From Arthrobacter citreus (lineage in GTDB: Bacteria > Bacillota > Bacilli > Bacillales > Bacillaceae_G): a stretch of 64,000 nt of DNA. Where the stretch lies: assembly GCA_013200995.1 (NCBI GenBank), contig CP053688.1, positions 1,860,001-1,924,000 on the forward strand. Direction: 5' to 3'. The position numbers were made by a program, and so were the translations under genes. The notes under the pieces are model-generated. The model was given only the letters and a program-made list of their open reading frames with translations, ran no database searches and was not told the origin of the DNA. Shown in pieces: positions 10,466-15,758 of the stretch (the first letter of the stretch is position 1; every line of letters begins with the position of its first letter).

Positions 10466-11273
<808 letters not shown>

Positions 11274-11279
11274 TGGATT

Positions 11280-11308
11280 ACTATAGCATATGTAGAATTA
11301 TTTATCAA
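11280..11308 (-). promoter_or_regulatory. Sigma-A promoter of rpsB
   Basis: On the minus strand TTGATA (plus 11303-11308) is followed by a 17-bp spacer and TATAGT (plus 11280-11285), each 5/6 to consensus. The predicted start is near 11273. Confidence 0.75.
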
Positions 11309-11556
11309 GAGAAAACGAGAAATTATTGTCGAACTTTCTACTCTCTTATTTGAGTTGATTTAAATTTGACGTTTCCTGACTGATTTCAACTATAGAAAAG
11401 TCCAACATATTCTACAATTTATTTAATTGCTTCTATTAAAATAAATTTTTCTTTTGTCACTTGAATTTTTATTTGATTCTAAAAGCAATATTATCAGTAT
11501 AGGAATTTTTTGTTAATTTATTCAAAATTTATCTTGTATATTTTCTGTTCTTCAAA

Positions 11557-11587
11557 GAAAAAGCAAGAAACTTTGTCTGTTTCTCGC
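11557..11587 (-). terminator. Rho-independent terminator after sigD
   Basis: On the minus strand GCGAGAAAC and GTTTCTTGC (one G:T pair) close a 7-nt loop and are followed by TTTTTC. It lies about 110 nt past the sigD stop and separates sigD from rpsB. Confidence 0.75.
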
Positions 11588-11694
11588 AAAATTTTAAAAA
11601 ACGCATTCTTTCATTAAAGCAAAATAATTAAATAATAATGCCAACTACTTATTAAGAAAAAAATTTAATCCACACGATATTAAGTTGAATAATA

Positions 11695-12462
11695 CTAGTT
11701 ATTACTAAAAAAATCCCTAAGTTTAAAAATTGCTTTTGCATGGATTTGAGAAACTCTAGATGTAGACAAGTTAATAATTGACCCTATTTCAGTAAATGTT
11801 AATTCTTCATGATAAAACAAGCTAATAACCATTTGTTCTTTCTCATTTAATTCAGCAACAATCGTCTCGGCTAACTGTTTAATTTGTTCATCCTTCAGTA
11901 TTTCCTCTTCTGGTGTTAATGTTTCGTGATTTCTAATCGTCTGGATAAAATTTACTTGTCCATCTCCATCATCTTTTATTTGGTCATCAAATGATAACAT
12001 ATTTGAAAAAAATACATCATTAATGACATTAACAACTTCTTTTGAGGAAAAACCAGTATATTGTGCAATTTCTTCTGGGGTGACTTTGCGCTGAAGCGTT
12101 GGTTCTAGCTTTTCAATAGCATAATCAATTTTCTTAGCTTTATCTCTCGTAGTTCTAGGTAGCCAATCCTCTTTTCGAAGACCATCCATTATATTTCCAC
12201 TTATTCTAATTGAAGCATAGGTTTCAAACTTTAAATCCCTATTTGGATCGAACTTCTCTAATGCGTCATATAAGCCCATCATCGCAAAACTTCTTAAATC
12301 ATCTCTACTGACATTTGAAGGTAATCTATGAGCTATACGATTAACTTGAAAATGAACTAATGGCATATAAATGCGAACTAACGCATCTCCTGCATTTACA
12401 TCGCGATCCTCTATCCACGTTTTCCAATAACTTTGTGAAACATTTTTTTGAACTTGCAACAC
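11695..12462 (-). CDS. sigD: FliA/SigD-family RNA polymerase sigma factor, detached from any flagellar operon
   Basis: A group 3 sigma-70 factor that in Bacillus directs flagellin, motor, chemotaxis and autolysin genes. Region 2 is intact (MGLYDALEKFDPNRDLKFET, then ASIRISGNIMDGLRKEDWLP). Region 3 follows, and region 4 carries ELTFTEIGSIINLSTSRVSQ. Length is about 255 aa, as for B. subtilis SigD. The frame opens at GTG 12471, inside the Shine-Dalgarno GAGGTG, so GTG 12462 or TTG 12459 is the more likely start. Its normal upstream fla/che genes are absent; codY is the next gene. Nothing in the conserved regions looks damaged. No SigD-type promoter (TAAA with CCGATAT) was found in the gap upstream. 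Confidence 0.92.
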   Translation of the reverse strand: MLQVQKNVSQSYWKTWIEDRDVNAGDALVRIYMPLVHFQVNRIAHRLPSNVSRDDLRSFAMMGLYDALEKFDPNRDLKFETYASIRISGNIMDGLRKEDWLPRTTRDKAKKIDYAIEKLEPTLQRKVTPEEIAQYTGFSSKEVVNVINDVFFSNMLSFDDQIKDDGDGQVNFIQTIRNHETLTPEEEILKDEQIKQLAETIVAELNEKEQMVISLFYHEELTFTEIGSIINLSTSRVSQIHAKAIFKLRDFFSNN

Positions 12463-13552
12463 GTCTTTCACCTCAGCGAATTACCATATTATGTTGATAA
12501 CTTGATTCAAATTCAACTCCCTTTAAGTTTGAGTTTACTTGTGAAAATTAATTAGGTCATTAATACATTAGTAGAATTGAATCGTTGTGCTCTCACACAT
12601 CTTTTTTGTAGTCCTCTTTAAATTTAATAATTAATTTTAAAGTGATTTTTTTATGTATTATAAATGCATTGCCACAATATACTGATGTCTTGCTTCATTC
12701 GTTCCATCACTTAAAATGTTATGCTAATTGAACCTTAACAAAGCGAAAAAATTATACGGTTATATCAATAAACAAATAATTTAGGTAATGAATATGAATC
12801 TATTAAAAAATTTCCGACTTTCTTTAATAAGAATCAACTAAATCTTCAAACTCAAATAGTATTTCAAATACACACTACATCTTTTAAAAAGCGATTTTGT
12901 TTTCCCGTAATTACTTTACGAATTAAACTTTATGGTTCACTTTTCTACTACCTTAAAAAAATTATAATATTAAATCCACCAATTTTATCCTCATATTCTT
13001 TAAGATACTGTGAAAACTTTTCTAATTTTTTTAAAACATTTCATTAAAATGAATGATCCATGTTAATTTTTTAAAATAATTATTAAATTTTAGAATTCTA
13101 TTTTAAGCACATAAAAATATTAGATTTAATTAAAGAGGTTGAGCTATTAAATAAAATACTTAATAAAGATCTTTTTTTAATCTATATTGATTTTTCTCTT
13201 TTAAATATTTTGATTAAAATTAAATTCTAGAGTGTATCATTCTAAAAATAGTATACGTTCAAAAGGCTAAATATTCTTTCATTACAAAGTTTATATTCGA
13301 GCAATGTTTTTTCATAATAAAATAAACCTTCACAGTTTTGTATATAATTTTTACACAATATTAAAAAGATAATTCTACATTATCCATTTTTATGAAGAAC
13401 CTAGTTAGCTTCCAATATTAATAATTAGAAAAAAATTATCGTATTTCCTAGATTAGAGACCTTCAAAGTATTCATCTAACAATAGTTGAGTAAAAAATAA
13501 AAAACCTTTCCTCTAATGTTCCATAAGAGAAAAGGTTTTTATTTATTATTAA
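12463..13552. other. AT-rich gene-free interval where the fla/che operon would lie
   Basis: About 1.1 kb separates codY from sigD. It is visibly more AT-rich than its surroundings, full of A and T runs, and has frequent stops in all frames. I found no frame with a ribosome-binding site and no recognisable fragment of a flagellar protein. Apart from the codY terminator at its right end I see no feature I can name. Confidence 0.75.
13497..13541 (-). terminator. Rho-independent terminator after codY
   Basis: On the minus strand AAAAACCTTTtCTCT pairs with AGAGgAAAGGTTTTT across a 12-nt loop, followed by a T-rich tract. It closes the xerC-hslV-hslU-codY unit. Confidence 0.85.
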
Positions 13553-14332
13553 TTAGTTAGACTTTAATTTTTCTAATTCTAATAAGAATTTATCATTTAG
13601 TACTTTAATATAAGTACCTTTCATTCCTAGTGATCTAGATTCGATAACACCAGCACTTTCTAATTTACGTAGTGCGTTTACGATCACAGATCTTGTAATT
13701 CCAACACGGTCAGCAATTTTACTTGCTACTAATAAACCTTCGTAACCATTTAATTCTTCAAAAATATGCTCAATTGCTTCTAATTCGCTATAAGAAAGAG
13801 ATGAAATAGCCATTTGTACAACAGCTTTACTTCTTGCTTCTTCTTCAATTTCTTCAGCTTTTTCACGTAGAATTTCCATACCTACTACTGTTGCGCCATA
13901 TTCAGCTAAGATTAAATCGTCATTTTCAAAATCTTGATTAATTCGCGCTAGTACTAGAGTACCTAAACGCTCACCACCACCGATAATTGGAACAATCGTT
14001 GTTAAACCACCAGAAAATAAATCTTTATTTTCAACTGGGAATGCAGTGTATTCACTGTTAATATCTATATTTGAAGAAGTTTCATTAATATTAAATAGGG
14101 TTTGAGTGTACTCTTCAGGGAATTGGCGATCACTGAACATTTTTTGCATACGCTCATTTTCGATTTTTTGGTGAAGACCATAACCTAATAACTTCCCTTT
14201 ACGGCTTAAAATAAATACGTTTGATTCAATTACTTCTTCTAATGTATCAGCCATTTCTTTAAAGTTTACTGGTTTACCTGCAGATTGTTGTAATAACTTA
14301 TTAATCTTTCTTGTTTTTTCTAATAATTGCAT
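13553..14332 (-). CDS. codY: GTP-sensing global transcriptional repressor CodY
   Basis: CodY binds branched-chain amino acids and GTP and represses stationary-phase and amino-acid genes in rich medium. The 259-aa length equals the Bacillus family. An N-terminal GAF domain (about 1-155) binds isoleucine/valine. A linker helix follows, then a winged helix-turn-helix at about 203-235 ([17 protein letters not shown]). The ATG has GGAGG 11 nt upstream. It is the last gene of the conserved xerC-hslV-hslU-codY cluster and ends at a clear terminator. Confidence 0.98.
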
Positions 14333-14366
14333 CTTTCTAAATGCCTCCTATTTAATTGTACGTTTC

Positions 14367-15758
14367 CTATAAAATGAATTGACTTATGTCTTTATCTTTT
14401 GCAATATTTGCGAGTTTTTCATTTACGTATTGTGGTGTAATCATGATTGTACCCATTTGAATCTCAGAAGCTTCAAACGATAAATCCTCAAGAAGTCTTT
14501 CCATAATCGTATGCAATCTTCTCGCACCAATATTGTCAGTAGTCTGATTAACATCAAATGCTATTTCTGCTATTCTACGTATAGCATCGTCAGAAAATTC
14601 GATTTGTATACCTTCTGTAGACAATAATGCTTTATATTGTTTAATAATTGAAAAATCTGGTTCAACTAAAATCCGAACAAAGTCATCAACAGATAGCTTT
14701 CCTAATTCTACACGAATTGGGAAGCGCCCTTGTAATTCAGGTATTAGATCAGAAGGTTTTGAAATATGAAATGCTCCCGCTGCAATAAATAGAATATGAT
14801 CCGTTTTGATTGGTCCATACTTTGTTACAACTGTACTACCTTCAACAATTGGTAAGATATCTCTTTGTACTCCTTCTCTAGAAACATCTTGAGTAGAGTT
14901 TTGTTTACTTGCAATCTTATCAATTTCATCTATGAAAATAATACCTAATTGTTCAGCCCTATAAACTGCTTCCTGGGTTACTTCATCCATATCAATTAAT
15001 TTCTGAGCTTCTTCATTTGTTAAAATTTTACGAGCTTCTTTAACGGAAAGCTTTCTTTTTTTAGTTTTCTTTGGAAATAAACTACCCAATGACTCTTGAA
15101 AGTTCATCCCCATTTGTTCCATTCCAGTTCCTTGCATGAAATCTAGCATTGGAGCTTGCTGTTGTTCTACTTCAACAGAAACAAGTTCTTCTTCTAGTTT
15201 TCCAGATAAAAGTTGAAATTCTATATTTCTTCTTTTAGACGTTAATTCTGTATCATTCTCTTCTTGCTCAGCATTCGAGTTTTGTGCATCTTGATTAAAA
15301 AGCATCTCAAGTGGGTTTTTAAATGAAGCTTGTTTTTTCATACTCGGTACAAGAAGTTTTACTAATCTAGTATTAGCATTTTTTTCAGCTTGTTCTTTCA
15401 CCTTATTCATACGCTCTTCTTTTACTATTCGAATGGCAGTTTGGGTTAAATCACGAATCATTGATTCAACATCTCTACCAACATAACCAACCTCAGTAAA
15501 TTTAGTAGCTTCAACTTTAATGAAAGGAGCTCCAACTAATTTTGCCATCCTTCTAGCAATTTCAGTTTTACCTACACCAGTTGGGCCAATCATTAATATA
15601 TTTTTTGGTGAAATCTCTTCTCGGAATGACTCTTCAAGTAAACTTCTACGATATCGATTTCTGAGTGCAATTGCTACTGCTTTTTTCGCTTGTTGCTGTC
15701 CAACAATATATTGATCTAGTTTTTCAACAATTTGACGAGGCGTGAAAGAAGTACTCAT
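14367..15758 (-). CDS. hslU: ATP-dependent protease ATPase subunit HslU/ClpY
   Basis: AAA+ unfoldase that feeds substrates to HslV. The Walker A motif GPTGVGKT is at residues 58-65, the Walker B segment is [11 protein letters not shown], and a variable I-domain with charged and Gln-rich stretches lies between them. The conserved C-terminal tail ends in KDISQFIL, the part that inserts into HslV. The start is ATG 15758 ([11 protein letters not shown]) with AGGAG upstream; a longer frame overlaps hslV. Length is 463 aa. The gene begins 11 nt after hslV. Confidence 0.97.

Follow-up and report, generated by a model that had tools for sequence, protein, structure and literature searches.

In the window, the whole 64,000-nucleotide stretch of DNA that we analysed, the sigma factor gene sigD lies directly beside codY and outside any fla/che operon, which raises the question of where the operon went and what this sigma factor could still be doing. 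A sequence-only reading had described the two genes as neighbours separated by about 1.1 kb of AT-rich DNA holding no gene, and this description proved accurate: the interval contains no ORF of at least 60 aa, and its GC content falls to 0.192 (500-base windows) versus about 0.30–0.37 in the flanking genes. The only coordinate corrected was the start at 12463, which lies 9 bp inside sigD. An Rfam scan of positions 11000–14500 returned zero families at E ≤ 0.1. Just 3' of codY, at 13498–13540, an inverted repeat with a T run is visible by eye; the terminator scan was silent there. Besides the score given in Table 1, the sigD product passed TIGR02479 (245 against a cut-off of 189.6) and the Pfam models of Sigma70 regions 2, 3 and 4, each above its cut-off, and the nearest solved chain is 6pfj.

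Table 1. Features of the codY–sigD locus (positions in the window) and of the glucosaminidase locus (positions on contig C1 of the same genome).
Feature	Position	Strand	Evidence or remark
ORF taken to be rpsB, downstream border	10466..11206	-	ORF; same place in the operon-bearing genomes
Possible swrB remnant between sigD and rpsB	11491..11553	-	75% over 65 bp to G012 swrB, E 7e-5, without shuffle control
Terminator-like hairpin 3' of sigD	11563..11587	-	one found versus 0.8 expected from shuffles
sigD, FliA/WhiG-family sigma factor, 258 aa, GTG start	11695..12471	-	NF005809, 364.6 bits, cut-off 326
codY–sigD interval, apparent scar of the lost fla/che operon	12472..13552	.	1,081 bp
cheD 3' end remnant, merging into the sigD ribosome-binding site	12472..12549	-	72% over 79 bp to G012; 1/540 shuffles as good
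Candidate weak sigma-A-like promoter match directly 5' of sigD, TTGAAT-17-CATAAT	12488..12516	-	9/12 matches
Fragment homologous to cheC interior	12788..12841	-	82% over 55 bp to G012, 51.8 bits; 0/540 shuffles as good
codY, upstream border of the deletion	13553..14332	-	NF003170, 423.1 bits
Glucosaminidase gene	C1:3466537-3468966		
Glucosaminidase promoter	C1:3469125-3469153		pattern match

We compared 13 genomes of Gottfriedia, including that of the window (G000; 5.47 Mb, 3 contigs, 99.98% complete), and six genomes from the same family. Judging from named relatives, the window's genome belongs to Gottfriedia; the named close relatives of its SigD come from Gottfriedia species and from Bacillus sp. 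strains whose present placement is near Gottfriedia. The three genus genomes with the fla/che operon (G008, G010 and G012) are called keepers below, and the ten FlhA-less ones losers. One of the latter, the flagella-less G013, is assembled in 800 contigs, and because its codY contig ends 70 bp beyond codY, it was left out of the codY–sigD comparison as not judgeable there; with sigD unmatched at E ≤ 1e-30, it was also omitted from the sigD work.

In the keepers (3 of 13 genus genomes), codY and sigD are 26.2–26.3 kb apart with the operon inside, and G018, which belongs to a sister genus, likewise has the operon there, the two genes being separated by 25.8 kb. Apart from FlhA, the gene names used for the keeper operons are those that we take to apply from gene order and sequence. 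In nine losers the distance is 710–1,329 bp (1,081 bp in the window's genome), and since the order codY, short gap, sigD recurs in these nine genus genomes, the interval is neither a chance arrangement nor an assembly gap. FlhA (PF00771) and flagellin (PF00669) were found in the same three genomes and are missing from the other ten. A tree of 18 marker genes, sigD excluded, groups the ten FlhA-less genomes as one clade with a branch support of 100 at both the DNA and the protein level (G013 and G016 contribute 6,984 and 10,299 of the 16,611 aligned bases), so that the most parsimonious interpretation is a single loss in the ancestor that they share.

The loser intervals were also searched for traces of the operons of the three keepers, with 540 dinucleotide shuffles as a control. 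In eight of nine losers the 110 bp bordering sigD can be aligned, at the same place, with the cheD 3' end (0–2 of 540 shuffles as good), and the ribosome-binding site of sigD forms part of this cheD-like block; the cheD tail of G015 was unmatched above control (377/540). The cheC-like fragment stands in the window's genome only, 20-bp matches of this kind in G007 and G015 being at chance level (283/540). Matches to one place of flhG in five loser intervals are individually weak (in G005, G006, G009, G011 and G016, respectively, 4, 58, 22, 203 and 58 of 540 shuffles did equally well), and we make no claim for them. Loss of the operon from this place, one of the two options offered by the sequence-only reading, is supported over original absence, because three congeners and G018 have the operon here and eight of nine loser gaps align to cheD. 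That reading had also named what would speak against it, namely close relatives that never had fla/che genes here, or decayed flagellar genes produced by an assembly or deletion error. Three congeners carry the operon, and small remnants are indeed present, but they are shared across the clade, which points to an old loss and not to an assembly error.

SigD was found in 12 of the 13 genus genomes, and its frame is open in all nine flagella-less genomes where it was found. Its dN/dS in these nine, pooled, is 0.147 (95% codon bootstrap 0.116–0.192; codY, 0.020), a value indicating that the protein is under purifying selection in the losers. The median is 0.142 in losers versus 0.070 in keepers (three pairs, dS high), so some relaxation is likely. 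Two substitutions mark the clade. Residue 91 is Ser in 9/9 losers and Arg in 3/3 keepers and in 107/107 other homologues among the matches listed (120 of 1,682); at residue 124 the losers have Pro or Thr, and the keepers and all 107 other listed homologues have Gln. The remaining 13 listed matches are Gottfriedia-like, 11 with Ser91 and 2 with Arg91. In an alignment with 6pmi (E. coli FliA), residue 91 falls on Arg76 and presumably sits just before the promoter-contacting helix. The clade-fixed Arg91Ser change could weaken SigD.

A genome search for flgM, which the sequence-only reading had suggested, recovered FlgM (PF04316) in 13 of 13 genus genomes. The protein of the window's genome scores 45.7 bits against a cut-off of 25; with the full-length model TIGR03824 it reaches 40.3, just under the cut-off of 40.75, in a match that begins at residue 27, and that of keeper G012 passes at 50.5. 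In the window's genome flgM directly follows comFC, a layout shared by the other losers, which are without the neighbours of flgM in the keepers: yvyF before it, and flgN, flgK, flgL, fliW, csrA and hag after it. Here Pfam identified FlgN, and the flagellin search identified hag and flgL; comFC, yvyF, flgK, fliW and csrA are our presumed names, and Pfam gave no match for YvyF. The FlgM annotated as G. luciferensis belongs to the keeper type, and the abstract of PMC5073260 describes B. luciferensis as a motile rod.

The two parts of FlgM were considered separately (G005 and G018 were left out of the alignment and dN/dS, as the anchors failed to match). With nine losers pooled, dN/dS is 0.289 in the C-terminal part (codon bootstrap 0.182–0.456) and 0.745 in the N-terminal part (0.350–1.675), as compared with 0.297 and 0.424 in keepers (three pairs, dS high). 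The sigma-binding end of FlgM is thus constrained, as judged by these ratios, and this conserved part and its dN/dS are all that favours the predicted binding of FlgM to SigD in losers. Relaxation of the N-terminus, which presumably holds the export signal, is suggestive only, because the interval of its ratio is wide. In the window's genome, the missing FlhA would exclude flagellar export of FlgM altogether.

SigD-type promoters were compared between the two groups. In the keepers, TAAA-N16-TCGATATAA precedes hag (3/3), and TAAT-N16-CCGATATAA precedes yvyF in G008 and G010, G012 being unmatched. In the losers, removal of yvyF puts a promoter of the TAAT-N16-YCGATATAA type directly before flgM, exact in eight of ten; its -10 box deviates in G005 (AACGATATAAA) and in G015, where it is shorter (ACGATATAAA). 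Among 259 upstream windows compared between nine losers and two keepers (G005 and G012 excluded), this -10 box was the best conserved (0.99) and the -35 box the next, the overall value of 0.29 being lowered by end gaps. A second SigD-type promoter lies about 12–15 kb from flgM, before a gene for an SH3/N-acetylglucosaminidase with five SH3 repeats and PF01832 (803 aa in G013), the domain combination of a LytD-like autolysin, and is exact in 9/10 losers and in 2/3 keepers (G010 and G012). Its -10 box, with an identity of 0.99 versus 0.41 overall, was the best of 402 windows (ten losers versus two keepers; G008, having no orthologue at 1e-30, was left out). SigD presumably transcribes from both promoters. 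The expectation of the sequence-only reading that sigD is still used is supported by its dN/dS together with these conserved promoters, and its suggestion of other targets such as autolysins gains support from the second footprint.

Several genomes depart from this pattern. In G015 the glucosaminidase -10 box is altered as well (CTATATAAT), making it the sole genome with both SigD-type -10 boxes altered (L081, flgM; L197, glucosaminidase), its sigD being open. An apparent split of the G015 glucosaminidase gene coincides with a run of N, so decay is not claimed. Frames of 1,088, 945 and 950 aa in G005, G009 and G011, compared with about 803–812 aa elsewhere, gave overlapping query matches and probably reflect variation in SH3 repeat number. 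In G008, a nearly identical SigD-type promoter (L230) precedes a PA14-domain ORF at the syntenic place of the glucosaminidase gene.

Genome-wide scans with strict patterns did not show a larger regulon: 24 matches against 19 for the reversed control in the window's genome, and 143 against 96, 62 against 68 and 76 against 59 for three patterns over 13 genomes each. Because these counts hardly or never exceed the reversed controls, only flgM and the glucosaminidase gene are proposed as targets. The recurrent matches examined from the 143- and 62-match patterns lie mostly inside ORFs. Thirty loci were examined of the 76 matches of the third pattern; ten lie outside ORFs, including three before flgM and three before the glucosaminidase gene, with no third conserved intergenic site among the thirty.

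The sequence-only reading had further argued that the control of SigD must differ in this genome. This follows from the absence of both the operon and FlhA, but the supply of SigD need not be wholly new, because a portion of PMC9250202 gives an annotated promoter immediately upstream of sigD in B. subtilis. A sigma70 scan upstream of sigD found no clear promoter, and the weak sigma-A-like match in Table 1 could be due to chance, since the region has fewer such matches than its shuffles (9 observed, shuffle mean 18.7). By position only, the kept cheD tail, where the minor promoter of B. subtilis would lie, is a candidate place for a sigD promoter. At 13060–13250, blocks such as those around TTTCACATTATTTTAAAG...TATAATTTT are conserved across losers and matched no family; they may possibly be a regulatory site for sigD.

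The family-level controls from beyond the genus are weak. G002, G003 and G017 are without FlhA, SigD (E ≤ 1e-30) and FlgM; since two flagellate congeners of G002 and G003, namely G001 and G004, are also without SigD and FlgM, only G017 resembles the usual outcome.

Overall, we consider it about 70% probable that the SigD–FlgM loop has been retained because it serves cell-wall remodelling, with FlgM no longer exported by a flagellum. A common ancestor of most sampled Gottfriedia would have lost by deletion the fla/che locus that separated codY from sigD as well as the second flagellar locus, the yvyF-to-hag stretch after comF, with sigD and flgM spared at the edges of the deletions. SigD would then transcribe flgM from the old yvyF/flgM promoter and FlgM would restrain SigD, giving a closed regulatory module in which SigD activates the gene of its own inhibitor, and free SigD would transcribe at least one cell-wall hydrolase, the SH3-repeat N-acetylglucosaminidase. 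With no flagellar gate for FlgM to be exported through, SigD output would depend not on hook completion but on turnover or on how sigD and flgM synthesis are balanced, and this balance might be tuned by comF read-through or DegU input. In B. subtilis, ComK read-through from comFA and DegU-P raise FlgM, according to passages of PMC4793158. A bolder version, in which the flagellar checkpoint is now a flagellum-independent cell-wall switch, with FlgM as a pure feedback inhibitor, an Arg-to-Ser change in region 2 of SigD and release by means other than export, is tentative and falls somewhat short of even odds; if it is true, SigD must be freed by a mechanism so far not known for FlgM, such as synthesis ratio or proteolysis.

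Could sigD and flgM instead be functionless relics, slowly decaying and retained by chance? The roughly twofold higher dN/dS of sigD in losers, the near-neutral N-terminal part of FlgM and the somewhat lower number of near-invariant SigD columns kept (71–73/82 in losers versus 75–77/82 in keepers) would fit such decay. We nevertheless regard it as very improbable, as the dN/dS of sigD excludes neutrality. The sigD of the window's genome differs from those of the other losers at 125–152 of 786 alignment positions, and simulated random substitutions at half that distance leave the frame open in only 2–4% of trials per lineage. Both promoters are footprinted, moreover, while the remainder of the codY–sigD interval scarcely aligns.

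It is likewise unlikely, to a lesser degree, that SigD mainly serves another, unrecognised programme, as WhiG serves Streptomyces sporulation, with the autolysin as a minor target. The scans covered strict patterns only, the clade-fixed Arg91Ser and Gln124Pro changes might shift the specificity of SigD, and G008 has its similar promoter before the syntenic PA14-domain gene; against this, both footprinted sites retain the flagellate-type CCGATATAA, and the loci examined yielded no further conserved intergenic site. As for flagella encoded elsewhere, with SigD in its usual job, which was the other option of the sequence-only reading (an operon moved and not lost), neither PF00771 nor PF00669 was matched in the window's genome, with controls positive in the expected named genomes. 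Short of all flagellar genes lying in the 0.02% of the genome that is missing, this explanation is refuted, and its probability is negligible.

In the open-licence literature, our searches found nothing on sigD or flgM in Gottfriedia, on a SigD–FlgM pair in a flagella-less bacillus or on FlgM and SigD retained together once the flagellum had been lost. FlgM is a textbook anti-sigma factor whose release couples to organelle assembly. In this clade the organelle and the export gate are gone, and sigma factor, anti-sigma factor and promoters persist under selection. The clade is thus a natural experiment on three points: what the circuit does besides motility (cell separation, chaining), how SigD is released when FlgM is not exported, and which region of FlgM serves export alone.

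The proposed circuit resembles the B. subtilis SigD–FlgM checkpoint in its orthologous sigma and anti-sigma factors, the same gene places and the same promoter type, as far as portions of PMC4793158, PMC4054197 and PMC9250202 describe the latter. According to these portions, SigD of B. subtilis drives hag, motAB, flgM, flgK, flgL and autolysins (PMC4054197), lytC and lytD are under its control (PMC4793158), and FlgM is secreted through the flagellum (PMC9250202). A cell-wall hydrolase is thus included in that regulon, as it is, putatively, in the losers. Unlike B. subtilis, the losers are without FlhA, flagellin and the fla/che operon, which would make export of FlgM by a flagellum impossible, and their SigD-type promoter directly precedes flgM, yvyF being gone. 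FliA-type sigma factors without flagella are already familiar from WhiG and from sigma-28 of Chlamydia. The chlamydial factor shares with the losers a FliA-type sigma without a flagellum; the losers additionally have FlgM and a flagellar scar, and we know of neither an FlgM-type partner nor an adjacent flagellar scar in Chlamydia. In Streptomyces, WhiG–RsiG pairs a FliA-family sigma factor with an anti-sigma factor in bacteria without flagella, and WhiG serves sporulation. The losers would be similar in giving a FliA/WhiG-family sigma factor a non-flagellar job; unlike in Streptomyces, their inhibitor is a true FlgM (PF04316), the loss is recent enough for operon scars to persist, and their sigma factor probably acts on the cell wall.
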